In this document: positions 29,236-59,302 of the stretch, in pieces | Layout: every line of letters starts with the position of its first letter | Numbering within the stretch: the first letter of the stretch is position 1 | Assembly: GCF_001553785.1 (NCBI RefSeq) | Contig: NZ_LOJP01000001.1 | Span: forward strand, 4,242,769 to 4,306,768 | Origin: Actinoplanes sp. TFC3 | GTDB lineage: Bacteria; Actinomycetota; Actinomycetes; Mycobacteriales; Micromonosporaceae | Direction of reading: 5' to 3' | DNA: 64,000 nucleotides | Made by a program: the position numbers and the translations under genes | The notes under the pieces: generated by a model | Databases searched by the model: none | The model's input: the letters and a program-made list of their open reading frames with translations, nothing else | What the model was told of the DNA's origin: nothing

Positions 29236-29520
29236 CAAGTGTTTCCTTCCGATCAACAGCGCGTTGCGACCACAGTCATGCATGACCATTCATGATGTCA
29301 ACAGATTGAAACAGGCTCGGACATTTTCGCTAGCCCGCCAGGGTTCCGGTATGCCGTCGCAGGGACTCATTCCTATCCGGATGCCCGCGCTACGGCCGCG
29401 ATGCGGACAAAGTGGAGTTCGTTGCCGATCGATGTCCTCGATGGCGGAGGCGTCCGATAAAGATCAGCGCTGCGGCACCCGCCCAGCGGCCCGCTGCGCT
29501 CGGCTGGCTACCGTGATCAT
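29236..29520. promoter_or_regulatory. divergent intergenic region with a palindrome upstream of GH2
   Basis: In this 285-bp gap a perfect 10-bp palindrome TCATGCATGA (29276-29285) is followed by TCATGA (29290-29295) at a 14-bp step. Both stand 40-60 bp upstream of the GH2 ATG at 29235, where a repressor would act. No gene is seen in the gap. Confidence 0.4.
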
Positions 29521-30426: not shown

Positions 30427-31788
<1,362 letters not shown>

Positions 31789-31797
<9 letters not shown>

Positions 31798-32613: not shown

Positions 32614-32724
32614 AATGTGTGAGCTCCCTGGGCGGCGTCTGCCGCGCTCGAGCCGTCCAGCATGGACGGCGTCCGAGTGCCGTGCGCGCTACCCGGGTCA
32701 CCCCCGAGGAAAGGGACCTCGCGC

Positions 32725-35214
32725 ATGATCAGAGTTCGAGCCGGTCGCAGGCATCTGGCTGCGGCGGCCGCCTTCTCGCTGATAGCCGCCGGTGTGTCCA
32801 CACCCGCGCAGGCCGCCCCGGCCTGGCACAAGGGCATCCCGCCGATCGCGACGCCCTGGACGGACCAGGTCGGACCGGCCAACGCCCTGCCGGAATACCC
32901 GCGCCCGCAACTGGTTCGCAGCAAGTGGCAGAACCTCAACGGCGTGTGGGAGTTCGCGAAAGCCGACGTCAACCAGGCGGTGCCGGCCGGGCAGTCGCTG
33001 GGCGAACGCGTGCTGGTGCCGTACCCCATCGAATCTGCTCTGTCCGGGATCCAGCGCCATGAGGACCGGATGTGGTACCGCCGCACCTTCACCGTGCCCT
33101 CAAGCTGGAAGGTCGGCTCCGGCCAGCGCCTGCAACTGCACTTCGGCGCGGTCGACTACGACGCCAAGGTCTACCTCAACGGCACCCAGGTGGCCACCCA
33201 CCGCGGCGGCTACGACGGCTTCGACGTCGACGTCACCGACGCGCTCAAGGGCACCGGCCCGCAGGAACTCATCGTCTGGGCCGAGGACCTCACCGACGCC
33301 ACCGGCCAGCCGATCGGTAAGCAGCGCCGCCAGAGCGACCGCGGCATCTTCTACCAGGGCAGCTCGGGCATCTGGCGCACGGTGTGGATGGAACCGGTCG
33401 CGGCCGCCGCTATCACCGAGCTCAAGCAGACCCCGGACGTGCCCGGCAAGGCGCTCAAGCTCACCGCTGACGTCTCGGGCGGATCCGGCCTGACGGTCAA
33501 GGCCGTGGCCACGAGCAAGGGCAAAGTGGTCGGCGAGGTCACCGGAGCCGCCGGCGCGCAGCTCACCCTGCCGATCAAGAAGCCGAAGCTGTGGAGCCCC
33601 GACGACCCCTTCCTGTACGACCTCGAGGTCACCCTGCTGGAGGGCACCAAGACCGTCGACTCGGTCACGTCCTACTTCGGCATGCGCTCGATCGGCACCA
33701 AGAAGGGCGCCGACGGCAAGCTGCGGATCGCGCTCAACGACAAGATCCTGTTCAACATGGCCACCCTCGATCAGGGTTTCTGGCCCGACGGGCTGAACAC
33801 CGCGCCCACCGACGAGGGCCTGAAGTTCGACCTCGAGCAGCACAAGGACATGGGCTTCAACGCGGTGCGCAAGCACATCAAGGTCGAGCCGGACCGCTGG
33901 TACTACTGGGCCGACAAGCTGGGCCTGATGGTGTGGCAGGACATGCCGGCCAGCAACACCGGGCCGATCCCCGAGGCATGGCGCGGACAGTTCGAGTCCG
34001 AGCTGCACGAGATGGTCCGCGAGCACCAGAGCTGGACCTCGATCATCGCCTGGGTGCCGTTCAACGAGGGCTGGGGCGAATGGGACCGCGCGGCCACCGG
34101 GCGCATCGCCGACGAGGTGAAGGCCCAGGACCCAAGCCGGCTGGTCAACGCGCACAGCGGCGTGAACTGCTGCAACTCCCACGGTGACTCCGGGCACGGC
34201 GACGTCATCGACCACCACCAGTACCTCGGCCCGGCCAGCCCGTCGCCGGACGCGAACCGGGTGGCCATCGACGGCGAGCACGGCGGCTTCGGCCTCAAGA
34301 TCTCCAACCACATGTGGTTCGGCGACGGCCAGGCGTACGAGATGGAGCCGGACTCCGAGACGCTGACCGCGAAGTACGTGGCCAACCAGAAGGCGGTCAT
34401 CACCTCGGCCCAGCAGTGCGGCATCAGCGCGGCGATCTACACCCAGATCACCGATGTCGAGGGCGAGCTCAACGGCTTCTGGACCTATGACCGCCAGGTC
34501 GCCAAGATGGATCTCAAGCAGGTCAAGAAGGTCAACAAGGAGATCATCAAGAAGGCCGACGGCAGCGCGAGCAACGTACCGCAGCCCCCGGCCGGCACGC
34601 CCGGTCTCGAGGGAGTCGCGGCGTACCCGTTCAACGGCAGCACCGAGGACACGGCTGGTAACCACGACGCTACGCTGGTCGGCAACCCCTCGTACGGCGA
34701 GGGCAAGAACGGCCAGGCCCTGGTACTCGACGGCTCGACCCAGTACGCCGACACCGGCGCGCCGGTGCTCAACACGGCCTCGGACTACTCCGCCTCGGCG
34801 TGGGTCAAGCTCGACAAGGCAGACGGCGCGTTCCAGACCGTGGTCAGCCAGGACGGGGCCAGCAACAGTGACTTCTTCCTGCAGTACTCCGGGGCTGACC
34901 AGCGCTTCGCGATGAGCTTCGCCGGGGTGCGCGCGCTGGCCCCGGCCAAGCCCGTGGTGGGCCAGTGGTACCACCTCACCGGCGTGCGTGACTCGGTGAA
35001 GGGCGAGCTGCGCCTGTACGTCGACGGCGAGCTGGCCGGTTCGGCGGGCGCCTGCCTGCCCCAGAGCGGTCCGACGGGCAACACCGTGATTGGTCGCGGC
35101 AAGTACGGCGGCAACCCGGTCGACTACCTGGACGGCGCCGTCGACCAGGTGCACCTGTACGACCGGGCGCTGTCCGCGACCGAGATCAAGGACCTGTACA
35201 CCTCGGGTCGCTGA
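32725..35214 (+). CDS. secreted GH2-LamG glycosidase
   Basis: A protein of 829 residues. Signal peptide (cleavage after AQAAP region, about residue 31), GH2 sugar-binding domain (PRPQLVRSKWQNLNGVWEF), Ig-like domain, TIM barrel with acid/base Glu in PFNEGWGEWDRAATG and candidate nucleophile Glu in AIDGEHGGF, then a Pro linker and a C-terminal LamG domain (YSASAWVKLDKADG, ELRLYVDGELAG). It is collinear with the GH2 at 26041-29235 but lacks PA14. ATG at 32725 has AAGGGA about 8 nt upstream. It probably acts on plant or microbial oligosaccharides outside the cell. Confidence 0.9.
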   Translation: MIRVRAGRRHLAAAAAFSLIAAGVSTPAQAAPAWHKGIPPIATPWTDQVGPANALPEYPRPQLVRSKWQNLNGVWEFAKADVNQAVPAGQSLGERVLVPYPIESALSGIQRHEDRMWYRRTFTVPSSWKVGSGQRLQLHFGAVDYDAKVYLNGTQVATHRGGYDGFDVDVTDALKGTGPQELIVWAEDLTDATGQPIGKQRRQSDRGIFYQGSSGIWRTVWMEPVAAAAITELKQTPDVPGKALKLTADVSGGSGLTVKAVATSKGKVVGEVTGAAGAQLTLPIKKPKLWSPDDPFLYDLEVTLLEGTKTVDSVTSYFGMRSIGTKKGADGKLRIALNDKILFNMATLDQGFWPDGLNTAPTDEGLKFDLEQHKDMGFNAVRKHIKVEPDRWYYWADKLGLMVWQDMPASNTGPIPEAWRGQFESELHEMVREHQSWTSIIAWVPFNEGWGEWDRAATGRIADEVKAQDPSRLVNAHSGVNCCNSHGDSGHGDVIDHHQYLGPASPSPDANRVAIDGEHGGFGLKISNHMWFGDGQAYEMEPDSETLTAKYVANQKAVITSAQQCGISAAIYTQITDVEGELNGFWTYDRQVAKMDLKQVKKVNKEIIKKADGSASNVPQPPAGTPGLEGVAAYPFNGSTEDTAGNHDATLVGNPSYGEGKNGQALVLDGSTQYADTGAPVLNTASDYSASAWVKLDKADGAFQTVVSQDGASNSDFFLQYSGADQRFAMSFAGVRALAPAKPVVGQWYHLTGVRDSVKGELRLYVDGELAGSAGACLPQSGPTGNTVIGRGKYGGNPVDYLDGAVDQVHLYDRALSATEIKDLYTSGR

Positions 35215-45982: not shown

Positions 45983-46666
45983 ATGACGACACACGTACGC
46001 CTCGACGACTTGATCGAGGACATCAGGAGGAGCAACGACGACGCGCTCGGCCAGCTCGAAGGCGCGGTGCTGGCCGCCGACCACCTCGGCGAGCTGGCCG
46101 ACCACCTCATCGGGCACTTCGTGGACCAGGCCCGGCGGTCCGGTGCTTCGTGGACGGACATCGGGCGCAGCATGGGCGTCTCGAAACAGGCCGCACAGAA
46201 GCGGTTCGTACCCAAGAATGAGTCCGGTGCCCAGATTTTCGCCCGGTTCACGCCGGGTGCCCGCGCGGTGATCGTGCAGGCGCAGGAGGAGGCGCGCATC
46301 GCGCGGAACACCGAGATCAAGACGGTGCATCTCCTGCTCGCGCTGGTCAAGGATCCCGGCGAGTCCGGTTCGCGGATCATCGTGGCACAGGGCGTGACGC
46401 TCGATGCGGTACGGGACGCCGCGAGCGCCACGTTGCCGGAGGCGGTCGAGGGGTCGCCGATGACCGTGCCGTTCGACGGGGACGCGAAGAAGGCGATCGA
46501 GTTGACCGGCCGGGAGGCGCTGCGCCAGGGCGACGAGCAGATCGGCACCCAGCACATCCTGCTCGCGCTGCTGGAGCAGGAGGACGGCGACGGGATCCTG
46601 ACCCGGCTCGGGGTGACCAAGGCCTCCGCCGAAAGGGCGGCGGAGGCCATCAGCCAAGACCGCTAA
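45983..46666 (+). CDS. Clp N-terminal domain protein with helix-turn-helix
   Basis: A protein of 227 residues. Residues about 50-78 form a helix-turn-helix-like segment (GASWTDIGRSMGVSKQAAQKRF). Residues about 85-225 are two Clp_N repeats (FTPGARAVIVQAQEEARIARN, KTVHLLLALVKDPGESGSRI; KAIELTGREALRQGDEQIGT, QHILLALLEQEDGDGIL). There is no AAA module, so it is not a chaperone. Such proteins may use the Clp_N fold to sense substrates or adaptors while binding DNA. The ATG directly follows the operator pair, which suggests autoregulation. It ends tail to tail with the GH114 gene. Confidence 0.85.
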   Translation: MTTHVRLDDLIEDIRRSNDDALGQLEGAVLAADHLGELADHLIGHFVDQARRSGASWTDIGRSMGVSKQAAQKRFVPKNESGAQIFARFTPGARAVIVQAQEEARIARNTEIKTVHLLLALVKDPGESGSRIIVAQGVTLDAVRDAASATLPEAVEGSPMTVPFDGDAKKAIELTGREALRQGDEQIGTQHILLALLEQEDGDGILTRLGVTKASAERAAEAISQDR

Positions 46667-47355
46667 ACCCGGGACAGCGCCCGATCGCTCACCACGCACT
46701 GCATGCCGAACTGGTGGGCCCGGCGGATCGCGAAGTCCGTCAGGCCCGGCGTGTCGGCGTAGTCGAGGGCGTACAGGTCGAGTTGCAGGCGCAAGAGTTG
46801 CTCGGCGATCTGGGCGTGGAATTCCAGCACGTCGGGCGGCCACGGGGCGTAGCCGTCGTCGGTCCAGCGAGCCGAGAAGGACTCGAACACCACGCCGTCG
46901 ACCAGCTCGGCCAGCCGGGGCAGCATCCCGAAGCCGCGGTTGGCCAGCATGTACGCCGGTTTCGCCTCGGCCCGGATCGCCGCGACCAGGGTCAGCAGGT
47001 GCGGCACGTCCTCGGGGAACGTCAGCTCCACGTTCAACGTGTCCAGGAACAGCCCGTCGAACCCGGCCGCCATGGCATCGCGGGCCTGCCCGACCACGTG
47101 CTCGACCCACTGCGGGTGGCCGACGTGCACGAAGTGGCCGCCCCAGTCGGGGTTCTTCTCCGCGCGTTGCCACACCGCCGGCGGACCCTGGTCCTCCGAC
47201 AACGTCAAGTAGCCCAGCGTCTGCACACCGCGCTCCTTGAGGAACTTCAACTCCTCGCTGGAGTAGAAGTCCGGCTGCAACACCACCCGCGGGTACCCGG
47301 CCAGCTCGGTCAGCCTGCCGTTGCCGTAGTAGAAACAGATGGGAGAGCCGGTCAT
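46663..47355 (-). CDS. GH114-like (TM1410) glycosidase-fold protein, cytosolic
   Basis: A protein of 230 residues of the TIM-barrel group that includes endo-alpha-1,4-polygalactosaminidase (GH114) and TM1410. Seen: LKERGVQTLGYLTLSED, FDGLFLDTLNVELTFPED (barrel strand with Asp), YMLANRGFGMLPRLAE and VVFESFSARW (Glu). It has no signal peptide, unlike the lipoprotein in the same operon. Last gene of the operon, overlapping the epimerase gene by 4 nt. The fold is fairly clear; activity inside the cell is not. Confidence 0.72.
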   Translation of the reverse strand: MTGSPICFYYGNGRLTELAGYPRVVLQPDFYSSEELKFLKERGVQTLGYLTLSEDQGPPAVWQRAEKNPDWGGHFVHVGHPQWVEHVVGQARDAMAAGFDGLFLDTLNVELTFPEDVPHLLTLVAAIRAEAKPAYMLANRGFGMLPRLAELVDGVVFESFSARWTDDGYAPWPPDVLEFHAQIAEQLLRLQLDLYALDYADTPGLTDFAIRRAHQFGMQCVVSDRALSRV

Positions 47356-48308
47356 GACGGCCTCCCGTGCTCGGCGTACCAGGCGAACGTCGACGCCACG
47401 CCCTCTTCCAGCGACACCTTGGGCTCATAGCCGGTCAGCGATCGCAGCTTGCTCAGATCCGGGCAGCGCCGGTGCACCGAACCGGGCGGCGCCGCAGTTG
47501 CCGACACCACGGGAGACGCACCGGCCGCCCGCAGCACCAGCGCGGCCAGGTCACCGATGTTGGTCTCCTCGCGGTCGTTGCCGATGTGCACGATCTGCCC
47601 GGCCGCCTCGGGCGTGCCCATCAGCCGCACCATCGCCTCCACGGCGTCATCCACGTGGCAGAATGCCCGGAACTGATCAGCCCCGGGCACCAGGAACGGA
47701 TCCTCCCCGGCCTGCGCGCGCAGCGACATCTCCGGGATCACGTGGTCGGCGCCCATCCGCGGGCCGTACACGTTGTGGAACCGCCCGACCACAGCGTCGA
47801 AGCCCTTGGCCCGCGCGGTGTGCAAGAACGCGGCTTCGCCGAGAAGCTTGCTGACCGCGTACGCGAACCGTGGTGCCGTGATGTCGGAAATCATTGCGGG
47901 TACGTCCTCGGCGGTGGGTACCCCGGCCACGCCGGCGTCCACTCCCCCGGCATACACCTCACTGGTGGAGGCGAAGAAGACCCGTTCGCCGGGCGCCACC
48001 CAGTCGAGCAGGTGCATGGCGGCGAGCGTGTTGACCCGTACCACTCGCGCCGGGTCCTTCTCCACGTTGCGCACGCCGACGACGGCCGCGAGCAGGTAGA
48101 TCTGGTCCCAGCCGTGCGACAGACCGGCGTAGGAAGCCGGGTCGGTCAGATCCGCGGAGATGATCTTCACCGAGGACGAGGAGAGGTCGGCGTCCTGGCG
48201 GCCCCGGGAGAAGTCGTCGACGACAGTGACCTCGTAGCCGTCGTTCACCAGGCGGCGGGCCAGGTGCAGGCCGATGAAGCCGGCCCCGCCGAGCAGGAGC
48301 GCCCTCAT
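47352..48308 (-). CDS. NAD-dependent epimerase/dehydratase (extended SDR)
   Basis: A protein of 318 residues. NAD motif GGAGFIGLHLARRLV, active-site STSEVYAG with the YAVSK motif (FAYAVSKLLGEAAF), and the sugar-binding RFHNVYGPRMG. It belongs to the UDP-glucose epimerase/UDP-glucuronate decarboxylase side of the extended SDRs. Placed after the UDP-sugar dehydrogenase, it probably acts on that product or on UDP-GlcNAc/GalNAc. It overlaps both neighbours by 4 nt. Confidence 0.85.
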   Translation of the reverse strand: MRALLLGGAGFIGLHLARRLVNDGYEVTVVDDFSRGRQDADLSSSSVKIISADLTDPASYAGLSHGWDQIYLLAAVVGVRNVEKDPARVVRVNTLAAMHLLDWVAPGERVFFASTSEVYAGGVDAGVAGVPTAEDVPAMISDITAPRFAYAVSKLLGEAAFLHTARAKGFDAVVGRFHNVYGPRMGADHVIPEMSLRAQAGEDPFLVPGADQFRAFCHVDDAVEAMVRLMGTPEAAGQIVHIGNDREETNIGDLAALVLRAAGASPVVSATAAPPGSVHRRCPDLSKLRSLTGYEPKVSLEEGVASTFAWYAEHGRPS

Positions 48309-49618
48309 GCCTCAACCCCCTGAGCAACAGGTACGTAGCCGAGACCCGCGTAGCGAATGCCGAGCGACGTGACGGCGGCGGCGTCGAGGATGCGCCAGGA
48401 GTCGAAGATGAGCGCCGGGCGGGTGCCGCCGAGCAGCTCGGTCACCTCGATCGAGCGGTAGTCCGGGTGGTCGTTGATGACCAGGATCGCGTCGGCGTCG
48501 GTGAACGCCTTGTCCAGGCTGACCGGGTCGCCGCCGTACTGGCGGATGACGTCGCCGGAGACCATCGGGTCGTGGCCGGTGACGGTGATGCCCGCGGCGG
48601 AGAAGATCGGCATCATGTCGGCGATGGGGGTGCCGCGCATGTCATCGGTGGGGGGCCAGCCCTTGTACGCCCAGCCGAGCACCGCCAGCCGCAGCCCGCG
48701 CGTCTCCTCGAACTGCGAGCTCAGCAGCCGTACCACTGTCTCGGCCACATGCTTGGGCAGGAACTCGTTGAGCGAGCGCGCCCGGCCCACCAGGAACGGC
48801 TCGTACGATCCGGCGCTGTCCAGCATGATGTACGGATCCTTGGACAGGCAGCCACCGCCCACGTAGCCCGGCTTGGCCAGGTCGGGGCGCGGATAGTCCA
48901 CGTTCGCCGCGCGGATGACCTCGAGCGGGTCGAGCCCGTGCTGCTCGGCGATCAGCGCCAGCTCGTTGCCGAAGGAGTAGATCAGGTCGGTGTGGCAGTT
49001 GTTGCTCAGCTTCACCATCTCGGCGGCTTCCAGGCTGGACACCTCGACCACGGTGTGCGCGAGCCCGCTGAAGAACTCGACAGCGGTGCGCAACGAGACG
49101 TCGTCCAGCCCGCCGATCACCTGGGGCAGCTCGACCAGCTCGCGCAGCGCCTGACCCTGGATCGTGCGTTCGGGGGCCATCACCAGCTTGACATCGTCGC
49201 CCCACGCGGCTTGCAGCTCGGGCAGCACAACCTTGCGGCTGGTGCCGATCGGTACGGTGCTGCGGACCACGACCAGCGTGCCGGGCCGGCAGGTGGCTGC
49301 GACGCTGCGTGCGGCCGCCGCGAGGTTGGCCAGGTTGGGCCGGCGGGTGCTCTCGTCGACCGGCGTGGACACGCTGATGACCGCGACGTCGACGGTGTCG
49401 CGCGGCAGCTCCGCGGCGACGAACACGCTGGTGCCCACCTTGTCCGCGAAGATCTGCTCGACGCCTGGTTCGAAGATGTGCGACCGGCCCTGCGAAAGGG
49501 TGCCGATCACGGTGGGCGACACGTCCGCGCCGTGCACGACGAACCCCTTGCCGGCCAGCGCCGCGGTCAGGGTGAGCCCGACGTAGCCGAGCCCGACGAC
49601 CCCGACTGTCATAGGCAT
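48305..49618 (-). CDS. UDP-sugar 6-dehydrogenase (UDP-Glc/UDP-ManNAc/UDP-GlcNAc type)
   Basis: A protein of 437 residues. NAD motif VGVVGLGYVGLTLTAALAG, STVPIGTSRK, APERTIQGQALREL and the active-site Cys in GYVGGGCLSKDPYI, then LGWAYKGWPPTDDMRGTP. The PERTxxG segment and VGGGCxxKDP are closer to the WecC/UDP-HexNAc dehydrogenase group than to Ugd at 30427-31797. It makes a UDP-uronate from a UDP-hexose or UDP-HexNAc with two NAD. ATG at 49618 has GGAGG 9 nt upstream; 32 nt separate it from the GH114 lipoprotein gene. Confidence 0.85.
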   Translation of the reverse strand: MPMTVGVVGLGYVGLTLTAALAGKGFVVHGADVSPTVIGTLSQGRSHIFEPGVEQIFADKVGTSVFVAAELPRDTVDVAVISVSTPVDESTRRPNLANLAAAARSVAATCRPGTLVVVRSTVPIGTSRKVVLPELQAAWGDDVKLVMAPERTIQGQALRELVELPQVIGGLDDVSLRTAVEFFSGLAHTVVEVSSLEAAEMVKLSNNCHTDLIYSFGNELALIAEQHGLDPLEVIRAANVDYPRPDLAKPGYVGGGCLSKDPYIMLDSAGSYEPFLVGRARSLNEFLPKHVAETVVRLLSSQFEETRGLRLAVLGWAYKGWPPTDDMRGTPIADMMPIFSAAGITVTGHDPMVSGDVIRQYGGDPVSLDKAFTDADAILVINDHPDYRSIEVTELLGGTRPALIFDSWRILDAAAVTSLGIRYAGLGYVPVAQGVEA

Positions 49619-49650
49619 GTCTGTTTCCTCCAGGTGGTGGGTGGACCCGC

Positions 49651-50568
49651 TCAGGGACACGGCGGGCTTGGTCGGTCCAGGCCGAGCACGGTGACGGTGC
49701 CGGCGAAGCGTTCCTTGCGGTACGAACTGCAGGCTGCCCGTACGTCCGCAGCTCGGCTGGCATAGTCGACGCTGAGCACGAACTTGCCGGCATCGCGCAG
49801 CGCCCGCGTCTCGCTGAGGTTCTCCGTGCAGTAGTCCTCGGTGCAGCGCTCGTCGGTGGCCTGGAAGAACAATTCCTCCATGCCGATCCCGTCGATCGCT
49901 GTGGTGTAGCCGTTCTGGTGGCGCAGCTCCGGTGAGTTCTGAGGAACGATCAGGAAACCGGGTGCGCGCTTCTTGGCGTACCGGCTGATTCTGACGATCA
50001 GCTCGGCCATGTCCTTGGCGAGAGCGTCCCGGTCGCGGCCCTGCACCGCTTGCAGAGCTATTTCCTCGTAGGCCAGAGGCGTGTCGAGGTACACGCCGTC
50101 GTAGCCTGCCGCTGTCGCCCGGTCGACGCGGGGTTGCACGACGCGCTGCCACCACCGTTCGTCGTAGTAGCGCACGAAATACTCGCCGGGCCAGTCCTTC
50201 CATTCGTTGGCGATCAGGTCGGCCGCATCGCGCCGCAGGTCCGGGTATTCCGGCCGGAAATCCTCGATGCTGCCGATCTCGAAGTACGCCAGCACCCGCT
50301 TTCCAGTGGCCCTCACCGCCGCGATCTCCGAGCGGGTGAAGTAGTCCTCGTGGGCATCTCGTGCCAGGTCGATGACCACCAGCTGATAGGGCCCCGCCGC
50401 CAACTGATCGAGTTTGCCGCCGGCGTAGTCCTGCAATTGGTAGGCCCAGGAATGCAAGGCCCCCGACGGTCGGGGCAAAGGCGAAGGTATGGGCGACGGT
50501 GAATGCGTGCACGCCGCCAGCAGCACCAGCACAAGTGCCGATGCTGTGGCCAGGCGCGGCATTCTCAT
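49651..50568 (-). CDS. GH114-like lipoprotein, endo-alpha-1,4-polygalactosaminidase type
   Basis: A protein of 305 residues with a lipoprotein signal (LVLVLLAAC, lipobox Cys at about residue 20) and a short Pro/Ser linker. The barrel carries WAYQLQDYAGG, LVVIDLARDAHEDYFTRSE, RVLAYFEIGSIEDFRPEY and GYDGVYLDTPLAYEE, all typical of GH114. That family cleaves alpha-1,4-galactosamine chains. Anchored outside the membrane in a Pel-like operon, it could trim or release the polymer, like the hydrolase domain of PelA. ATG at 50568 overlaps the epimerase stop. Confidence 0.82.
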   Translation of the reverse strand: MRMPRLATASALVLVLLAACTHSPSPIPSPLPRPSGALHSWAYQLQDYAGGKLDQLAAGPYQLVVIDLARDAHEDYFTRSEIAAVRATGKRVLAYFEIGSIEDFRPEYPDLRRDAADLIANEWKDWPGEYFVRYYDERWWQRVVQPRVDRATAAGYDGVYLDTPLAYEEIALQAVQGRDRDALAKDMAELIVRISRYAKKRAPGFLIVPQNSPELRHQNGYTTAIDGIGMEELFFQATDERCTEDYCTENLSETRALRDAGKFVLSVDYASRAADVRAACSSYRKERFAGTVTVLGLDRPSPPCP

Positions 50569-51440
50569 CCGGCCGCCCAGATGTTCTTGATGGACGTGCT
50601 CAGGTCGTGCGCGGGCGTCCATCCCAATTCGGCGGCGGCGCGCCGGATGTCAGCCTGAATCCAATTGACTGCCGCCGACCGTTGCGGACCGCTCCCTTCC
50701 TCACGAACGGTTCCGGTCCAGCCCGCTCTTTCCACAAGCAAATGCACGGCTTCGCGTACGGTCACAGCCCGCCCGCTTCCCGCGTTGTAGATGCGGCTCG
50801 GCAACCGGGGTGCCACCACCGCGGCCCGGATCAGCGAGGCGACATCCTGCACATCGACGAAATCGCGGTACGCGCCCAGCGGACCGAGGGTGATCTCGCA
50901 AGCGCCCGACAACTGGGCCGCCCGTATCCGATCCGCGGCCCGGCCCAGCACGTTCTCGCCCGGTTGCCCCGCACCGATCGGGTTGAACACGCGCAACGAG
51001 ACAGCGTCGGCGCGCCCGGTGGCCCCGGCCAGCGCGAACAGCCGGGTGCCGGCGAGGTGGCTGATCCCGTACGCGCCAACGGGTTCGGTGCGGTCGCCCT
51101 CGGCCACGGCCCGGCCCTGCTCGACGACGCCGTACTCCCCCGCCGACCCGAGCCGCACCAACCGCGCCCCCGGCACCGCGGCTTCGACGGCCTCCACCAA
51201 CTTGGCCGCCACCGCCGTGTTGGCCCGCACCAGGTCCTCGTACGACCCGCCGAGCGCCCCTACGCAGCACACCACCGCATCCGGCGCCTCGGCCCGCAGC
51301 AACGCGGTCAGCCCAGCCGTGTCCCCGGCGATGAGGTCGAACCGGTCCCGCCCGGGACAGACAAGTTCCCCCTCCGGAGCCAGCGCCGCCTTCACATGCG
51401 ACCCAATGAACCCCGACGACCCGAAAAGCAGAATTTTCAT
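50565..51440 (-). CDS. NAD-dependent epimerase/dehydratase (SDR), second copy
   Basis: A protein of 291 residues. NAD motif [17 protein letters not shown], active-site LGSAGEYG with YGISH in place of the usual YxxxK, and [17 protein letters not shown]. The Lys of YxxxK is replaced by His, so catalysis may differ from standard epimerases. The C-terminal sugar domain reads [20 protein letters not shown] at 51440 overlaps the nucleotidyltransferase stop by 4 nt. It may be a reductase or epimerase for a nucleotide sugar. Confidence 0.78.
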
Positions 51441-52165
51441 ACCGGCTCCTCCAGGCGCTCGCGCAGGATCTTGGGCCGGATCGTTTCGAAGGTGCGGTTG
51501 GCCTCGTCGTAGTCCTCGGGGCGGCCGATGTCGAGCCAGAAGCCGTCGAACGGGAACGAGCCGGGGTTGTCGCCGCGCGCCAGCAGGTCGAGCACGAGCT
51601 GGTCGAAACCGAAGGCCAGGCCCGGGGGGTACGGATTGAGCGTGCGCCGCGACATCCCGTACACGCCCATGCTGACCTGGTAGTGCAGACTGGGCTTCTC
51701 CCGGAAGCCCACGATCTGCGACTTCTCGATGTCGAGCACCCCGAACTCCACGCGGTGGGTGCGCTCGGCGATGGCCACGGTGAGCCCGTTGCCGGCCATC
51801 TGGTGGTGCTGCAGCAGCTCGGCGTAGTCCAGGTCGGTCAGGATGTCGCCGTTCATCACCAGGAACTGGTCCGGCAGCGACTCCTTGAGCGCGAACAGCG
51901 GCCCGACCGTGGACAGCGGCCGGTCCTCCTCGATGTAGTCGACCTCGAGGCCCCAGCGGCTGCCGTCGCCGACGAACGCCTTGATCAGCGGGCCGAGATG
52001 GTTGATCGCCAGGGTGACCGACATGAAGCCGCTGCTCGCCAGCTGCTCCAGAACGATTTCCAGGATGGCGTGCTTGTCGCCGATGGGCATGAGCGGCTTC
52101 GGGAGCGTGGTGGTGTACGGCCGCAGCCGCACCCCCTTGCCGCCGGCCAGGATCACCGCGTGCAT
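51437..52165 (-). CDS. sugar nucleotidyltransferase
   Basis: A protein of 242 residues, NTP_transferase family. The signature [22 protein letters not shown] is split here by its normal loop; [19 protein letters not shown] and [12 protein letters not shown] (metal Asp) follow, then [19 protein letters not shown]. It joins a sugar-1-phosphate to a nucleoside triphosphate; the sugar may be Glc-, Man- or HexNAc-1-P. GGGGAGGA lies before the ATG at 52165. It gives the operon its own donor supply. Confidence 0.87.
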
Positions 52166-52192
52166 AGCAGATCTTCCTCCCCGAGTCGTGAT

Positions 52193-53884
52193 CTACCGGT
52201 AGTGGCGGACCTGGCCCACGATGGGAGCCAGGCCGAGCAGAAACAGGCCCTGCAGCGCGACAACGCTGCCGAGGTAGAGCGCCGTGTCGGTCAGCGGTGC
52301 CCCCGTCTGGCCCAGTAGCGGTGCGGCGCCGAGAGCGGCACCGGCTCCGACATGGATGGCCAGCGCGGCCAGCATCGACCAGCACAGCCAGGCGAAGCGT
52401 TCGAAGCCGGCGAGCAGGAACGCCGAGTAGTAGGCGGCGGCCAGCGCGACGTGCGCTCCGATCATCACCGCGCCCGGGGCGGTGAGCCAGCCGCCTGTGT
52501 GCAGCACGGCCACCAGGATGATCCCGAGCAGCGCCGGGAAACCGAGGCAGAACAGCGTTTCCCGGCCGATCAGCCAGCGGATGGAGCGCTGGAACTCTTC
52601 GGGCCGGTGGCTGCGCCGGGTCAAGGCAACGGCGGCGGCGCGGAAACCCTCGGCCCGCCATTCCACGAAGCCCATCGCCGCGATCAGAGGCGCGGCCGAG
52701 ATGGCCACGTCGAGGCGGTTCAACAGGTACGGGGCTTCGGCGTGCAGCAGCAGGGCCGCCGAGCAGGCGCCGTACAGGGTGACGCCGGTCAGGCCACGTC
52801 GTTGCGCGCGCAGCACGGGCCGGCCGGGCAGTTCGGTTTTCGCACCGCGGTTGCGGGTGAGCAGCAGGGCCGCGGTGCAGGCGGCGGCGACCCCGCCGAT
52901 CGCGGTGCCGATCGCGACCGGGCGCGCCGCGGTGCCGTACCAGAGGTAGGCAGCCCCGCCGATGACGGCCGGCAGCATCGTCGCAACCTGCAGTCCCTCG
53001 CGGCGGTAGAAGACCAGGACCGTGCCGGCCAGTTGATAGCCGAGCTGGCCGACGGCGAGCACGACCAGCCCCCAGCCGCCGCCGAACGTGAGCACCACGA
53101 TCAGCCCGGCCAGGGCACCGGCCAGGGGCGCAGCCAGCGTCGACCACAACAGCAAGCGCGCCGACGCCCGCGGCCGGTACGCCCCGAGCAGCTTGTACGC
53201 GCCGAAGGACACGGTGCCCGCGTACATCCAGCCGACCGCGCTGGCAAACGTCAGCGCCAGCACCACGTTGCGCTGCCCGAGCACCCCGAGCACCGCCGGG
53301 AACACGGCCGCAGGCAATGCGTACAGCGGTCCGTGCGCCAGAACTCGCAGGCTGTAGCGCCAGTCGCGCACGGGTTCCTGCGGTTCGGCCAGCGCCTCGG
53401 CGGGCGGGCCCATCCGCTTGTACACCTCGACGGCGAGCGCGAACACGTCGGCGAAGCCGTACTCGACGCGGGCGATGCGGTCGGTGAACCCGTCGGCCTC
53501 CAGCGCGGCGGCCACCTGCAGAGCATCGACCGCGCGGGTCAGTGACGGGCGGATCCGGTCGACCAGCTCGTCGAGCGGGTCGGTGGAAACCCTGGGCAGC
53601 ACCACGGTGTGGGTCTGCGGGCCGTCCGCGGGTGCAGGTGGCGGTGGCGGTGGTGCCGTGCCGTCCGGGCGCGCGGGACCGGCCGGGGCGCGACGGCGTC
53701 CCTGCTTCGGGATGGGCAGCCGCTCGGTGCGCTCGCCGACCTCGATCCGGATGGTCCGGCCCCCCACATCGAGGGTGCCGGGCTCCAGGCGCACGGTCTG
53801 CTCGCCGACGTTGATGCGGCGGGTCTCATCGGGGTCGGCGAGGTCGATGCGCTGGGTTTCGTTGGGGTCGGTGACCTCGGTCAT
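52193..53884 (-). CDS. PelG-like polytopic membrane protein with soluble N-terminal extension
   Basis: A protein of 563 residues. The first 90 hold short repeats (TQRIDLADPDETRRINVGE, RTIRIEVGERTERLPI) and a Pro-rich linker, all soluble; residues about 100-175 are a helical region. From about 185 there are 11-12 membrane segments (LYALPAAVFPAVLGVLG, LLWSTLAAPLAGALAGLIVV, LIAAMGFVEWRAEGFR). Size, topology and the overlap with a PelF-like gene fit PelG, a putative flippase of the MOP/MFS type for Pel polymer export. Sequence identity to PelG is not obvious by eye, so this rests on context. Confidence 0.62.
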   Translation of the reverse strand: MTEVTDPNETQRIDLADPDETRRINVGEQTVRLEPGTLDVGGRTIRIEVGERTERLPIPKQGRRRAPAGPARPDGTAPPPPPPAPADGPQTHTVVLPRVSTDPLDELVDRIRPSLTRAVDALQVAAALEADGFTDRIARVEYGFADVFALAVEVYKRMGPPAEALAEPQEPVRDWRYSLRVLAHGPLYALPAAVFPAVLGVLGQRNVVLALTFASAVGWMYAGTVSFGAYKLLGAYRPRASARLLLWSTLAAPLAGALAGLIVVLTFGGGWGLVVLAVGQLGYQLAGTVLVFYRREGLQVATMLPAVIGGAAYLWYGTAARPVAIGTAIGGVAAACTAALLLTRNRGAKTELPGRPVLRAQRRGLTGVTLYGACSAALLLHAEAPYLLNRLDVAISAAPLIAAMGFVEWRAEGFRAAAVALTRRSHRPEEFQRSIRWLIGRETLFCLGFPALLGIILVAVLHTGGWLTAPGAVMIGAHVALAAAYYSAFLLAGFERFAWLCWSMLAALAIHVGAGAALGAAPLLGQTGAPLTDTALYLGSVVALQGLFLLGLAPIVGQVRHYR

Positions 53885-55407
53885 CGGGGCCCCCGGAACA
53901 GGGTGCTGGGCGCGGGCACGCGGCCCTGGGCGGGCTCGCGCAGGTGCCGCGGCGCCTCGGGCGCATCCAGCGGCGTGGCCAGGCCCTCGTACACGTTGCG
54001 GTACATCTCCAGCGACTGCTTGAGCGTGAAGTGCTCAAGCACGCGCTGGCGGGCGGCGTACCCCAGGTTGAACCGCAAGTCGTTGTCCCTCAACAGCTTG
54101 ATGCACGCCTCGGCCACCGCGGCGTGGTCGCGCGGGGCCACCACGATGCCGGTCTCGCCGACCGCCTCCGCCACCCCGCCGACGTTGGTGCACACCGTCG
54201 GGCGCCCGCACGCCATCGCCTCCACGACCGTGTACGGAAAGCCTTCGGAGATGCTGGTGAGCGCCACGATGCTGCCGGCGTGGTAGGCGTCGACAGCGTT
54301 GCCGATGCGGCCCTCCAGCACGGCCGCGCCGTCGAGCCCGAGTTCCTTGATCAACCGCTCGCAGGATTCGTGGTAGATCCGGTTGACTGCGGGCGTACCC
54401 CCGAAGATGCGCAAGCGGGCCGCCGGGATCTGCTTGCGCACCAGAGCGAAAGCCCGGATCAGCGTGTGCAGGTCCTTCAGCGGGTCGATGCGGCCCATGA
54501 ACGAGATCGTCGGCACCTCGGGCTCCGAGGATGCCTGCGGGAACTCGGCCGGCTCGACGCCGTTGTACATGGTCCACATGCGTTCCGGGTCGGCGCCGTT
54601 GTGCAACTGCCAGCGCCGGTTGTACGCCGAGTGCGGGGCCAGCACGTCGGTGATCAGGTAAGCCGCGCCGGCCAGCGAGCGGAAGAAGCTCAGCGCCAGC
54701 ACCCGCACCGCGTGCGACGCGTCGTCATGCAGGTAGGAGATGTAGCGTTCGCGCAGGTAGATGCCGTGCTCGCTCATCACCAGCGGGGTGCCGTTGCGCC
54801 ACTTGGCGGCCATCCCGACCAGCGTTGACAGCCCGTTCATGGAGGAGTGCACGATGTCGGCCTCGACCACCGGGGCGCTCAGCGGGCGCAGCATGTGCTC
54901 GATCAGCCAGGCCGCCTGGATGGCATCGGCCACGGTCGGCGCCGGGGCGGTCTGCTCGACGCGCAGGTCCCGCCACGCGTCGAGCATCATGCCCAGTGCC
55001 TGATTGGAGACCAGCGCGGCGCTCAGGTCACCACCGTCGGCGGCGTACTCGTACAGCCCGCGCAGGGCGAGCAGGAACAGGCTGCGGCTGACCGCACCCT
55101 GGTCCGAGGCGGTGGTCTCGAGCGGGGTGACCAGCGCGCGCAGGAACACCTCGTACGACTCGGTGAACGCTGCGCCCGGCCGGTCCCCCGCGCCGAGGCG
55201 TCCCGGGCGCGCCCCCCACAGCGGGATGGAGTGCACCTGGTCCAGGTTGGCGGGCGGGGCGAAGACGGGTTTCTCCTTGCCGTCCACGGTGAGCGCGACG
55301 ACTTCCCAGCGGTAATCCGGGATGCCGCGGATGAGCTGTTCGCACCAAATGCTCACCCCGCCCATCGCGTAGGGGTACGTCCCCTCCGACACCAGTGCGA
55401 TCCGCAC
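53881..55407 (-). CDS. pelF: PelF-like GT4 glycosyltransferase
   Basis: A protein of 508 residues. The N-terminus RIALVSEGTYPYAMGGVSIW and the segment VMSEHGIYLRERYISYL (HGIYLRER at 214-221) are hallmarks of PelF, the cytosolic polymerase of Pel that uses UDP-GalNAc. The GT4 end carries ISFMGRIDPLKDLHTLIRAF and the EX7E-type EGFPYTVVEAMACG. GTG at 55407 is used with GGAGG 10 nt upstream. It follows the deacetylase gene by 30 nt and overlaps the PelG-like gene by 4 nt. The donor sugar is inferred from the family. Confidence 0.88.
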   Translation of the reverse strand: MRIALVSEGTYPYAMGGVSIWCEQLIRGIPDYRWEVVALTVDGKEKPVFAPPANLDQVHSIPLWGARPGRLGAGDRPGAAFTESYEVFLRALVTPLETTASDQGAVSRSLFLLALRGLYEYAADGGDLSAALVSNQALGMMLDAWRDLRVEQTAPAPTVADAIQAAWLIEHMLRPLSAPVVEADIVHSSMNGLSTLVGMAAKWRNGTPLVMSEHGIYLRERYISYLHDDASHAVRVLALSFFRSLAGAAYLITDVLAPHSAYNRRWQLHNGADPERMWTMYNGVEPAEFPQASSEPEVPTISFMGRIDPLKDLHTLIRAFALVRKQIPAARLRIFGGTPAVNRIYHESCERLIKELGLDGAAVLEGRIGNAVDAYHAGSIVALTSISEGFPYTVVEAMACGRPTVCTNVGGVAEAVGETGIVVAPRDHAAVAEACIKLLRDNDLRFNLGYAARQRVLEHFTLKQSLEMYRNVYEGLATPLDAPEAPRHLREPAQGRVPAPSTLFRGPR

Positions 55408-55437
55408 GTGAAACCCGCCTCCCCCGTCCACGGTGAC

Positions 55438-57573
55438 TCAGAGCCGCGGAGCCGCGGAGAGAGTCACTGCCGTGTTCGCTGTCAGGGCCACCGGACCCGA
55501 GACGTCGCTGCCGTACGCCGTGGCCGCCGCGCTCTGCACCCCGCTGAGCTGGATGGTGCCGGTCAGCGGCGAGGTCACCGTGACGGTGCCGGTCGAGCGG
55601 TCGTAGACCGGATCGGCCCCGGCGGCGCGCTGCGCGAAGTGCGCGTTGCGCAGCGAGGTGTAGGCCCCCAGCGCCGACCAGTCGAGGTTGACCAGCGGCG
55701 TGGCGTACAGCGAGTCGTACTTGGTGACGACGTTCTCCACCCAGTCGCCGACCAGGCTCTTACCGGCGTTGTAGTCACGCACGTTGGCGATGTGGAACGT
55801 GTGCGTGTTGACCGAGCCGGCCGCCACGTGCTGCAGGCCGATACCCGCCTCGTAGTCCAGGATCTGGGCGTACGTACGGTTGGTCGGCCAGTACGGGAAC
55901 TTGCCGTCCGGGCCGTAGAAGGAGTTGTAGAAAGCGGTTTCCTCATCCGGCGTGGTGGTGTGGTACGCGATGTTTGTCGGCCAGTCCGGGACCACCTGCA
56001 GGCTCGGCTCCAGCGGGTGCACGATGCTGGTGTTGAAGTTCGCCGGCACGTGGCTGGCGAAGGACATGTTGCCGTGCAGGTACTTCACACCCAGGTTCTT
56101 GGCGGCCTGCAGCAGGTTCGGGTTCGAGCCCTGCAACCCGTGATCGACCGGCACACCCGTGTCGTCGTCGGGGTCATCGGTGTACACGCCCAGACCCGAG
56201 TATTCCGGGGTCTTCAGCACATCGTTGGGCACGCTGAGACCGGCGGAGTTCGCAGCGGCCCGGTTGTCGTTGATCTCGGCGTAGGTGGTGGCGTACGTGG
56301 TCGAGTTGAGCTCGTAGTGGTTGAGCGTGTGGTTGATCCACCGGAAGTGCGTGGCCAGGCACTTGCTCGTCGCGGTCAGCTGGGTGGCGTCGCCGTTCGG
56401 GCTGCACTGGTTGCCGGCGAACGGGTCGATGTCGGCGCCGTTGAACGCGAGGTTGTAGGTGAACGAACTCGCCTGCGGGTGCGTGGTGCGCAGCGCGGTC
56501 TGGTGGTTGTCCAGGTTCACCATGTCGTGCGCGGAGACCTGGAAGCCGGGGTCGTACTCAACGTGGCCGTCGGCGTAGTAGTGGTCGGAGGTGTTGAACC
56601 AGTCGTCGATGTCGACGTTGAGGAAGTGGCGCTGCTCGCCGAGGAACATGCCCTTGGTGGCCCACCGCACGACGCCGTAGACGAGCAGATCGGACTGCAA
56701 CAGGTACTGGTTGAGGGTGAAGGTCAGGGCCAGCCGCTCCCGGCCGTCGGTGCTGGTGGTACGAACCCCGAGCACGTTGGTGCCGTCGGTGAGCGTGGAC
56801 TGGGCGTTGCAGCCGGGCTTGATGGCGGTCTTGTAGACGTAGGACTGCACCACCGGGATGGTGGCGCCGGCCTTGAGGTAGTCGAAGACGCCGGCTCCGG
56901 CCGCGGTGAAGTTCACGTTCAGCGGGGTGTCGCCGACGGAGGTCTCGCTGTTGGAGGTCAGGCAGTAGTCCTCGGGCCAGGTGCCGTAGCTGGTGTAGAG
57001 CGCGGCTTGGCGGACGCCGAAGTTGCGCTCGTACGCCCAGAGGATGTTCCACTCGCCGCTGTCGAGGCCGTTGAGGAACGCGCCGCCGGAGGAGTAGACG
57101 AGCATGCTGTTGGTCAGCAGGATCGCGTTGTACTTGCCGACACCGTCGCCGCGTACCAGCGTGTTCGTGGTCAGCGCGGTGTCGGCGCTGTAGAGCACGT
57201 CGTAGGAGGCACCGAGCCGGTCGAGCGTGGTCTTGTACGTGGGCACGCCGAAGTCGCTGGTATCGGTGGCGATGACCAGCGCGCGCAGGCCGACCTGGTC
57301 GTTGAGACCGGCCGCCGCGGCCTTCGCGGGCGCTTTCGGCGTGGCTGTCCTGGGCGCAGTCAGAGCCACCTTGCCGGTGCGCTTGGGCAGCGCGGCGGGC
57401 GGCGTCACCTTGGGCGGTGCGACCTGGCCGTAGCCGGGCACCTGCGGCGCGGGGGTGCGCAACGGCGGCTTGGCGCCCGCCGCGGCCGGCGAGGCGACCA
57501 CGAGGGCGCTCGCGCACAACGCGGCGATGAGGGTGCGCAACCCTCGGCGATGGACGGGACGGGCAGGAGCCAT
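55438..57573 (-). CDS. secreted polysaccharide deacetylase, Agd3/CE18-like
   Basis: A protein of 711 residues. Signal peptide (about 10-33), a Pro/Ala/Lys linker, a flavodoxin-like N-terminal domain (LRALVIATDTSDFGVP, KYNAILLTNSMLVY), a beta domain, then a deacetylase barrel with HFLNVDIDDWF (Asp pair at 321-324) and HTLNH (415-419), the metal motifs of NodB-type deacetylases. The order and length match Agd3, the fungal deacetylase of galactosaminogalactan (CE18). It would remove acetyl groups from GalNAc outside the cell. ATG at 57573 has GGAGG 8 nt upstream. It heads the operon. Confidence 0.75.
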   Translation of the reverse strand: MAPARPVHRRGLRTLIAALCASALVVASPAAAGAKPPLRTPAPQVPGYGQVAPPKVTPPAALPKRTGKVALTAPRTATPKAPAKAAAAGLNDQVGLRALVIATDTSDFGVPTYKTTLDRLGASYDVLYSADTALTTNTLVRGDGVGKYNAILLTNSMLVYSSGGAFLNGLDSGEWNILWAYERNFGVRQAALYTSYGTWPEDYCLTSNSETSVGDTPLNVNFTAAGAGVFDYLKAGATIPVVQSYVYKTAIKPGCNAQSTLTDGTNVLGVRTTSTDGRERLALTFTLNQYLLQSDLLVYGVVRWATKGMFLGEQRHFLNVDIDDWFNTSDHYYADGHVEYDPGFQVSAHDMVNLDNHQTALRTTHPQASSFTYNLAFNGADIDPFAGNQCSPNGDATQLTATSKCLATHFRWINHTLNHYELNSTTYATTYAEINDNRAAANSAGLSVPNDVLKTPEYSGLGVYTDDPDDDTGVPVDHGLQGSNPNLLQAAKNLGVKYLHGNMSFASHVPANFNTSIVHPLEPSLQVVPDWPTNIAYHTTTPDEETAFYNSFYGPDGKFPYWPTNRTYAQILDYEAGIGLQHVAAGSVNTHTFHIANVRDYNAGKSLVGDWVENVVTKYDSLYATPLVNLDWSALGAYTSLRNAHFAQRAAGADPVYDRSTGTVTVTSPLTGTIQLSGVQSAAATAYGSDVSGPVALTANTAVTLSAAPRL

Positions 57574-58043: not shown

Positions 58044-59255
58044 TTAGACGCGGTGCCACTTCTGGTTGGCGAAACCGTTGCACGTCCAGATATTCAGCGG
58101 CGCACCATTCGCACCGTTCCAGCCGCCGATGTCAAGACACTTGTTCGAGCCAATGTTCACGATGTCGCCGGCCCCCGAGATCGCCCACTTCTGGGCCCCG
58201 GTTCCATTGCAGGTGTAGAGCTGCACCCAGCCCCCGTCTGCGGTGGAGGCATCGGCCACGTCTACACATTTCCCGCCGATCCGGATGCTGCCGTCGGCGG
58301 CGAAGGTGAACTTCTGCATCGGCCCGTTCCAGCAGTCCCACATGGTCAGCCGGATCCGGTCGGAGTACTGCCCGTTGGGTACGTCGACGCACTTGCCGTT
58401 CCAGTCGCTGACGATCTCCTTGGCCGTACCCGGGTCGGGCGTGGTGGGCGGGTTCGTCGGCGGCGTGGTGGGCGGCGGGGTGGCGCCGTTGCCGTGGAAC
58501 GTCACCGTGAAGCCGCTGCACTCCTTGCAGTTGTACATGACCTGGTTGCCGGGCTCGGTATCGTGTTTGGACCAGCTGTACGCCCGCGGGCACGCCGCCT
58601 TGATCGCCTGGCTGTAGTCGGTGACCGCGTCCCGGTTCGGGTTGGTGCACAACAGCGGCTGGCCCTGGGCGTCGCGGGTCAAATAGGCCTGCGGGCACGC
58701 GTTCAGCAGCGGCTTGGCGCAGCCGGCCTCGGCACAGTACTGCGATCCCGGCGCCGGCGGTGGCGACCCGCTGGGCGTGATGGTGATCGGCAGCGACACC
58801 GCGTTGACGTAGCTCACGTTGTACCAGGGCGCACCCCACGGGTCCGAGGGGTCGAAGTTGAACTCGGCCAGGCTCGCGTTCTGCTCGAAGTTGATCGCGC
58901 AGTGGTCAGCGGCGTTGCCGCAGTCACCGACCTGGCAGTGGAACGTGCTGCCCGAGTTGCCGGCGCACCGCTGACGGGCGAAGAACTTGCCCCGCCAGTG
59001 GTTCGGGTACGAGTTCTCCGGGATGACGATCGTCGCCGACTGACCGGGGTCCAGGATCGGCAGCCGGGAGAAGTTCACCGACTCGTCGTAGTTGACAGTG
59101 CTGCCGACCCAGATCTTCTCGGTGCTGGCATTGACGAACGTGACGGTGTGCTCGGCGGCCGCGTGGGCCGCGGGGCTGCCGGCAATCAGGCCCGCGGCAA
59201 TCGTCGCGAGCAAGGCGAACACGGACAACAAGGTGCGTTTGCTGTTCACAGACAT
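58044..59255 (-). CDS. secreted thaumatin-like protein with ricin-type lectin domain (CBM13)
   Basis: A protein of 403 residues. Signal peptide (about 8-32, ending SPAAHAA). Residues about 35-265 have the thaumatin pattern: HTVTFVNASTEKIWVGS, paired Cys such as QRCAGNSG and CGNAADHCAINF, then ACPQAYLTRD and ACPRAYSWSKHD, the bacterial/fungal form of the TLP end. After a Pro/Thr linker, residues about 280-403 are a ricin beta-trefoil (GKCVDVPNGQYSDRIRLTMWDC, three QxW-like repeats, last FANQKWHRV). TLPs can bind or cut beta-1,3-glucans, so an antifungal role is possible. ATG at 59255 has no ribosome site. Confidence 0.85.
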   Translation of the reverse strand: MSVNSKRTLLSVFALLATIAAGLIAGSPAAHAAAEHTVTFVNASTEKIWVGSTVNYDESVNFSRLPILDPGQSATIVIPENSYPNHWRGKFFARQRCAGNSGSTFHCQVGDCGNAADHCAINFEQNASLAEFNFDPSDPWGAPWYNVSYVNAVSLPITITPSGSPPPAPGSQYCAEAGCAKPLLNACPQAYLTRDAQGQPLLCTNPNRDAVTDYSQAIKAACPRAYSWSKHDTEPGNQVMYNCKECSGFTVTFHGNGATPPPTTPPTNPPTTPDPGTAKEIVSDWNGKCVDVPNGQYSDRIRLTMWDCWNGPMQKFTFAADGSIRIGGKCVDVADASTADGGWVQLYTCNGTGAQKWAISGAGDIVNIGSNKCLDIGGWNGANGAPLNIWTCNGFANQKWHRV

Positions 59256-59302
59256 TGATGTTAAGCGATGTTTGACCCGGTGAGAACGGGGAGCGCACAG
59301 CA

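Follow-up and report, generated by a model that had tools for sequence, protein, structure and literature searches.

A nine-gene operon of the soil bacterium Actinoplanes sp. TFC3 (7.75-Mb genome), located at 46663–57573 of the 64,000-nucleotide stretch analyzed here (the window, whose own coordinates we use throughout), probably serves to make and export a galactosamine-type polysaccharide, partly deacetylated, that resembles Pel and galactosaminogalactan (GAG). The route would be synthase-dependent and a sister to classical Pel. We also put forward, as a tentative proposal that may hold, that PelF and the membrane protein encoded next to it constitute a separate synthase-dependent export pathway that extends over at least Actinomycetota and Deinococcota. 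A single unrecognised polytopic protein with a cytosolic docking module would stand in for PelD, PelE and PelG there, and a dedicated cytoplasmic endo-galactosaminidase (GH166, or spherulin-4/GH135 type) would edit the polymer or clear it ahead of export. An earlier note on this DNA had described a Pel/GAG-like exopolysaccharide operon; its central idea is right and partly published already, i.e., bacterial CE18 operons with glycosyltransferase, multi-span membrane protein and GH114 genes were reported by Bamford et al. 2020 (PMC7229062, section 13). New here is that PelFs encoded next to this type of membrane protein group into a clade separate from PelG-adjacent PelFs, and that 39 of 43 surveyed loci contain a galactosaminidase-type protein judged to be signal-less. 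Also new is that the Actinoplanes-type branch has lost the CM3 arginine of the deacetylase and the lysine of the first short-chain dehydrogenase/reductase (SDR1), and has gained a sugar dehydrogenase. All nine genes are real and lie as described earlier, in both order and position:

55438–57573, minus strand: CE18 (Agd3-type) polysaccharide deacetylase with CBM87, presumably exported, 711 aa (Pfam, Agd3 structure match)
53881–55431, minus strand: PelF-type GT4 synthase of a divergent clade (NF038011, DUF3492, tree)
52193–53884, minus strand: polytopic membrane protein, presumed exporter, from a family that lacks annotation (neither Pfam nor NCBIfam matches; PelF-adjacent relatives)
51437–52165, minus strand: sugar-1-phosphate nucleotidyltransferase (PF00483, 128 bits; solved relatives)
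50565–51440, minus strand: SDR1, NDP-sugar reductase/epimerase-like, with a YGISH motif (PF01370, 93.8 bits; 6x3b)
49651–50568, minus strand: exported lipoprotein, GH191-type endo-galactosaminidase (9ep5 and TM1410 matches; lipobox)
48305–49618, minus strand: nucleotide-sugar 6-dehydrogenase, UGD (TIGR03026, 293.7 bits; 4r16, CalS8)
47352–48308, minus strand: SDR2, UDP-sugar decarboxylase/epimerase-like (PF01370, 151 bits; 4lk3)
46663–47355, minus strand: GH166 hydrolase corresponding to the PelA hydrolase domain, signal-less and predicted cytosolic (PelA 5tcb match)

The genes are tightly packed. A 4-nt overlap joins five of the neighbouring pairs; the other three are separated by 6, 27 and 32 nt, as taken from the coordinates, where the earlier note gave gaps of 27–32 nt. 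We searched for the membrane protein in 60 genomes, i.e., its own, 35 of the same genus and 24 of other genera. Thirteen of the 35 contained a strong copy (E about 1e-129 or better) and two more a divergent one (G005, G022); the 24 genomes of other genera gave no match. Sixteen comparison loci were then defined by a strong membrane-protein match, thirteen from the same-genus genomes and three from named strains (L021–L023, with L021 from Winogradskya consettensis NBRC 14913); the named strains nearest at the locus were Winogradskya and Paractinoplanes. This survey of gene order, which the earlier note had suggested, bore out the operon: each of the 16 loci has all nine genes in an unchanged order, and because the order is kept we regard the set as more than a chance assembly. 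In three of these loci genes are split over frames (PelF in both L040 and L046; in L047 the membrane protein as well as UGD), and outside this set the CE18 gene of L133 lies in five pieces, which reflects decay or assembly errors. The divergent same-genus loci L048 and L049 held a partial gene set, and the sister-genus locus L118 (genome G261) yielded eight of the nine genes, all but GH191. PADLOC made no call on the locus.

The synthase had been expected to be a PelF-like GT4 enzyme, and it scored 171.7 bits with the NCBIfam PelF equivalog NF038011 (cut-off 100); Pfam DUF3492 matched with 160 bits. We calculated a tree from 43 PelF sequences, for which the program issued a long-branch warning. 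PelG-adjacent PelFs formed one clade (9 rows, support 100/99), and PelFs adjoining the membrane protein or its conserved N-terminal module formed a separate one (28 rows, 100/98), which includes L132 and L134, where the membrane protein shares the module only, and eight shorter loci with a partial protein match. Scores with the PelF model were 369–507 bits for PelFs of PelG genomes versus 100–194 bits for those beside the membrane protein or module, the latter range covering PelFs above cut-off, four of which needed neighbouring hits summed.

The membrane protein had been called PelG-like, and this description was not upheld. No family matched it in Pfam or NCBIfam, and the PelG model (PF16933), positive in the Thermotoga maritima control, matched neither this protein nor anything in the 60 genomes. 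When a profile of its membrane part, built from 15 diverse relatives, was compared with nine PelG proteins, E was 0.48, with 0.75 for the reversed control. Homology to PelG was also pursued with PDB sequences, with profiles of three and then nine PelGs, and through an intermediate family, and found no support. An apparent link to PelG via Actinomycetota intermediates (E 8e-16) had to be rejected, as the shared N-terminal module alone caused the signal; after this module was trimmed, the membrane family matched these intermediates (L054 type) with E 0.56, compared with 0.34 for the reversed control. The membrane part of the L054-type proteins did match PelG with E 0.0013 (reversed control 0.12), but we give this little weight because the membrane family reaches E 0.0017 against its own reversed profile. 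The conserved module, presumed cytosolic, lies at about residues 100–160, and about twelve long helices follow after residue 170, the latter seen in a low-confidence model alone. The N-terminal tail, residues 1–90, has short charged ETVRID-like repeats, the number of which varies among relatives (L035, L021, L022).

The genomic company of this family nevertheless links it to PelF. With the module included, its profile matched in 14 of 296 genomes of the phylum; PelF lay within 1.5 kb of the match in 13 of them and about 2.4 kb away in the 14th. PelG was above cut-off in three other genomes of this sample. Moreover, CE18 adjoins canonical PelF and PelG in two Actinomycetota genomes (L143/G070 and L144/G099), which constitutes a mixed Pel/GAG locus; a PelD-like GAF/GGDEF protein is encoded upstream in L143 (G070), the sole one of the two tested. 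As CE18 occurs beside either PelG or the new membrane protein, the latter appears to take the place of PelG, and it is mainly for this reason, together with its position, that we call it a presumed exporter. PelD and PelE had been reported as not seen, and none of the nine genes encodes them; a PelD_GGDEF search of the own genome was empty, but the model matched no control either and hence tells nothing about the genome.

The deacetylase was correctly described as Agd3-like. Agd3_CE (53.6 bits) and CBM87_Agd3 (41.8 bits) were both above the Pfam cut-offs of 27.6, and the protein matched the Agd3 structure 6nwz with E 3e-13. Its N terminus is hydrophobic, as read by eye. With motif residues taken from PMC7229062 (excerpts), we found CM1, CM2 and CM4 kept (D323, D324, H415, H419, H594) in 32 of 32 aligned sequences, i.e., the metal and acid/base residues are intact; the alignment was made without the L133 fragments and the copies in L106, L143 and L144. 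The position of the CM3 arginine is occupied by D530 in the window protein. Aspartate was found here in 17 of 17 Actinoplanes-type sequences and in Thermus, cysteine in L118 and arginine in 13 sequences. For this position the register with Agd3 is taken from a weak second match segment (i-Evalue 1.5) and is backed by the arginine in the same column of the Deinococcus and Streptomyces copies. Agd3 requires this arginine (R613), which is not universal in bacteria (PMC7229062, excerpts). The window protein is 35–41% identical to Deinococcus copies and 25% identical to those of Streptomyces californicus. For surveys the Pfam CE18 model was poor (matches in 4 of 394 genomes of the class), and we used our own profile, which finds copies in same-class stretches fetched for PelF or the membrane protein. 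A plasmid of Deinococcus aquaticus carries a tandem pair of CE18 genes (L102, 11710–16275).

Both hydrolases had been assigned to GH114, which was right for the galactosaminidase superfamily and wrong for the family. The lipoprotein matched the solved structure 9ep5 best (E 5e-72), followed by TM1410 of GH191 (about 9e-27) and Ega3 of GH114 (4e-7), so that by best match it belongs to GH191; the broad Pfam GH114 model gave 128.5 bits. TM1410 has been placed in the new family GH191 (PMC12054363, excerpts), and we infer 9ep5 to be the Env-GH191 structure reported there. The protein has a lipobox (LAAC20) and, as the earlier note had stated, is a lipoprotein; its presumed catalytic D and E are kept. 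Of the 17 Actinoplanes-type loci, 15 were tested for a hydrophobic N terminus of this protein at its best start, and 14 had one. A second GH114 gene is located elsewhere in the genome (L001, G000:C1:2972865-2973518) and scores 197 bits with the GH114 model versus 129 for the lipoprotein. The last gene of the operon matched the hydrolase domain of Pseudomonas aeruginosa PelA (5tcb, E 1.5e-13) and is hence a GH166 gene; the statement that PelA was absent is therefore half right. Its catalytic Asp and Glu are kept in 17 of 17 sequences, window included.

In all 17 Actinoplanes-type loci, GH166 begins at the first barrel strand, with a maximal 11-residue hydropathy of 1.2 in the first 35 residues, and within 60 codons upstream there is no start that would supply a signal peptide. 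L118, three Deinococcus loci and one Thermus locus likewise have a signal-less GH166, and in 17 further loci it is a spherulin-4 protein that lacks a signal. A signal-less galactosaminidase-type protein was thus present in 39 of 43 loci, while one (L131) could not be judged and in three (L132–L134) none was found in the stretch fetched. The 43 loci are the window and 16 Actinoplanes-type loci, L118, L102, L103, L107, L104, ten spherulin-4 loci (L048, L049, L105, L121, L123, L125, L127, L129, L135, L136; our search found no CE18 in L129, and the short L136 contig showed no PelF), eight shorter loci and L132–L134. The start used was the one nearest the domain, and a second GH166-like protein in L104 was left out of the count. 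Five proteins of canonical PelG loci, in contrast, carry N-terminal export signals, i.e., the spherulin-4 proteins of L143 and L144, the glycoside hydrolase and PelA of Pseudoalteromonas, and the glycoside hydrolase of Cetobacterium. Judged by its N terminus, GH166 seems to be located in the cytosol, where it may have a clearing role. In the open-licence literature, available in part as excerpts, we found no description of a cytosolic galactosaminidase in such an operon.

The remaining genes point to nucleotide-sugar supply. SDR1 matched GDP-6-deoxy-mannose reductase 6x3b with 69 bits; at the YxxxK position, which we take to be the catalytic lysine of SDRs, it has His in all 18 Actinoplanes-type sequences, counting L118, and Lys in each of the 16 others. 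UGD is closest to UDP-ManNAc dehydrogenase (4r16, 185 bits) and CalS8 (172 bits), and the best solved match of SDR2, in which YxxxK is kept in 19 of 19 sequences, is UDP-glucuronate decarboxylase 4lk3 (129 bits). From these relationships a pentose is as possible as the uronic acid suggested in the earlier note. Actinoplanes-type loci have UGD and SDR2 added, and they lack the SDR found between membrane protein and nucleotidyltransferase in Deinococcus and Streptomyces. Taken together, the loss of the CM3 arginine, the loss of the SDR1 lysine and the gene changes suggest that sugar supply, and hence perhaps the polymer, has changed in this branch.

The core of the operon is found beyond Actinoplanes. 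PelF, membrane protein, SDR, nucleotidyltransferase, CE18 and glycoside hydrolase occur together in Deinococcus aquaticus, D. sp. QL22, D. grandis (L107) and Streptomyces californicus; Thermus brockianus has a shorter form without the sugar genes (CE18, PelF, membrane protein, GH166, GH191). In all five of these records the membrane protein is labelled 'hypothetical'. CE18, PelF and membrane protein were also found in some of 19 further stretches fetched. Eight short clusters (L119, L120, L122, L124, L126, L128, L130, L131) combine PelF, a module-bearing membrane protein, SDR1 and spherulin-4; our own profile found no CE18 in these eight.

We propose the following mechanism. PelF would polymerise UDP-GalNAc in the cytosol, with NDP-sugars supplied by the nucleotidyltransferase, the SDRs and the dehydrogenase. 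The membrane protein would dock to PelF via its cytosolic N-terminal module, carry the chain across the membrane and, as position and the exchange with PelG suggest, do the job of PelG, PelD and PelE. Outside, CE18 would strip acetyl groups and the GH191 lipoprotein would trim the chain. The signal-less GH166 might cut polymerised, unexported chains in the cytosol, comparable to AlgL, which is reported to clear alginate from the periplasm and is the nearest idea found (a title cited in PMC9894940). In the Actinoplanes-type branch, supply would be rewired and the polymer would probably contain a second sugar. Both polymer chemistry and exporter role are inferences. The model searches that the earlier note had suggested gave matches for PelF, CE18 and, on the lipoprotein, GH114, and none for PelG. 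Its signature of three unrelated protein types is real once the two GH114 names are corrected to GH191 and GH166, and its galactosamine-type polymer is still indicated by PelF, CE18 and the galactosaminidase-superfamily enzymes, with the PelG-like component no longer among them.

Several observations weigh against this picture. Sequence comparison supports the membrane protein neither as a PelG homologue nor as an exporter, and AlphaFold2 models, made from four sequences each, reached a pLDDT of 40 for the whole protein and 50 for the N-terminal module and were not used. With Asp at the R613 equivalent, CE18 may deacetylate weakly or rely on another residue, and SDR1 is without its catalytic lysine. 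The CE18 of Burkholderia stagnalis (L106) has no PelF or membrane-protein match within 10 kb (E 1e-6). Signal peptides were judged with a simple hydropathy rule and by eye, without a trained predictor, and in L048 and L049 by eye only. The call for L105 is borderline (1.7 at the annotated start) because the first barrel strand sits at the very N terminus, and starts further upstream in L105, L123 and L125 score 2.7, 2.0 and 1.8. Among the canonical controls, the glycoside hydrolase of Paraburkholderia is ambiguous (1.6), and its annotated PelA scores 0.7; the same rule would call them signal-less, which for PelA counters the contrast, although their annotated starts may be wrong.

It is quite possible, though we would not expect it, that this is an ordinary Pel operon without any new mechanism, its PelG too divergent to be recognised and its PelD and PelE lost. 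The order of PelF and membrane protein is that of PelF and PelG, the multi-span proteins are of comparable size, and the Actinomycetota protein L054, which shares the N-terminal module (E 2e-11), weakly matches PelG in Pfam (E 3e-4), as does the membrane part of its type in our profiles. The family itself, however, matched neither PelG nor the L054 type at a level distinct from reversed controls, values near 0.001 mean little in such comparisons, and PelF likewise splits into two clades. The signal-less hydrolase might be a recycling enzyme that degrades short re-imported oligosaccharides and not nascent polymer, which we consider rather unlikely: many loci do pair it with an exported GH191 or GH114 enzyme able to release fragments, but the nine genes include no sugar uptake transporter or catabolic kinase, and the sister genus (L118), in which no GH191 was found, has kept the signal-less enzyme.

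We see little reason to expect a cell-wall or sporangium-matrix polymer of Actinoplanes in place of a biofilm matrix. Deinococcus, Thermus and Streptomyces have the core module as well, and to our knowledge they form no such sporangia. Actinoplanes sporangia are filled with polysaccharide, and the exopolysaccharide clusters imp, wps-1 and gsf of A. missouriensis are reported to be needed for normal sporangia, yet they are described as Wzx/Wzy or GtrA type and are distinct from the present cluster (PMC13390465, PMC12691653, excerpts). PelF, GH114 and galactosamin have zero occurrences in PMC13390465, and Pel, GH114 and galactosamin have zero in PMC12691653. Equally unlikely, in our view, is a heteropolysaccharide of pentose, uronic acid or 6-deoxy sugar that is not mainly galactosamine, with CE18 acting as a crippled binder in this branch. 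The exchange of the CM3 arginine for Asp or, in the sister genus, Cys, the Lys to His change in SDR1 and the added UGD and SDR2 would fit such a product, but the remaining catalytic residues of CE18 are kept throughout, and two galactosaminidase-type enzymes have kept theirs.

Cationic galactosamine polymers hold and shield microbial biofilms from Pseudomonas to Aspergillus. The GAG cluster of Aspergillus fumigatus has a different glycosyltransferase and a different epimerase, and we know of no PelF in it. In this fungal cluster, as in our operon, an Agd3-type deacetylase adjoins galactosaminidase-type hydrolases (PMC7229062, excerpts). The bacterial agd3 operons are closer, as they combine CE18 plus CBM87 with a cytoplasmic glycosyltransferase and a multi-spanning membrane protein, GH114 genes being highly consistent; Agd3 homologues are described for Actinobacteria and Deinococcus-Thermus, some of the actinobacterial operons include spherulin-4 genes, and some of the Gram-negative copies have Pel-like genes nearby (PMC7229062). 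The text of that paper has zero occurrences of PelF and PelG, and its section 13 is without GH166, the membrane-protein family and the hydrolase location. In contrast to those operons, the one described here has lost the CM3 arginine and SDR1 lysine and has the dehydrogenase and SDR2 added. The suggestion that the locus may be a new variant therefore holds, although its kind was already described in 2020. The Bacillus cereus pelDEADAFG operon shares PelF, a separate deacetylase and a separate PelA-type hydrolase (PelAH) with our locus, but it has PelD, PelE, PelG and a CE26 deacetylase (PMC7112168, PMC13254593, excerpts). PelAH has a signal sequence (PMC7112168, excerpts), i.e., GH166 is exported in B. 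cereus as in P. aeruginosa, whereas no hydrophobic N terminus is present in any of the 17 proteins here.

If the locus works as proposed, it would be a simpler, second solution to export, with the c-di-GMP receptor PelD not in the operon, and a membrane-protein family annotated as hypothetical would gain a testable role. The conserved signal-less hydrolase raises the question of why a product-cutting enzyme is kept on the side of product synthesis. If true, editing of a secreted polysaccharide by a cytosolic enzyme would be a new element in exopolysaccharide biosynthesis.

Other genes of the window were noted in passing. A protein with thaumatin and ricin-B-lectin domains (58044–59258, minus strand) is encoded upstream of the operon on the same strand, and a relative of it directly follows GH166, at the other cluster end, in L021 and L022. 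Two large GH2-type enzymes with LamG (26041–29289, minus strand, and 32662–35214, plus strand) flank a second UDP-sugar dehydrogenase (30427–31797), and a 730-aa protein with eleven RCC1 repeats is encoded at 19102–21294 on the plus strand.

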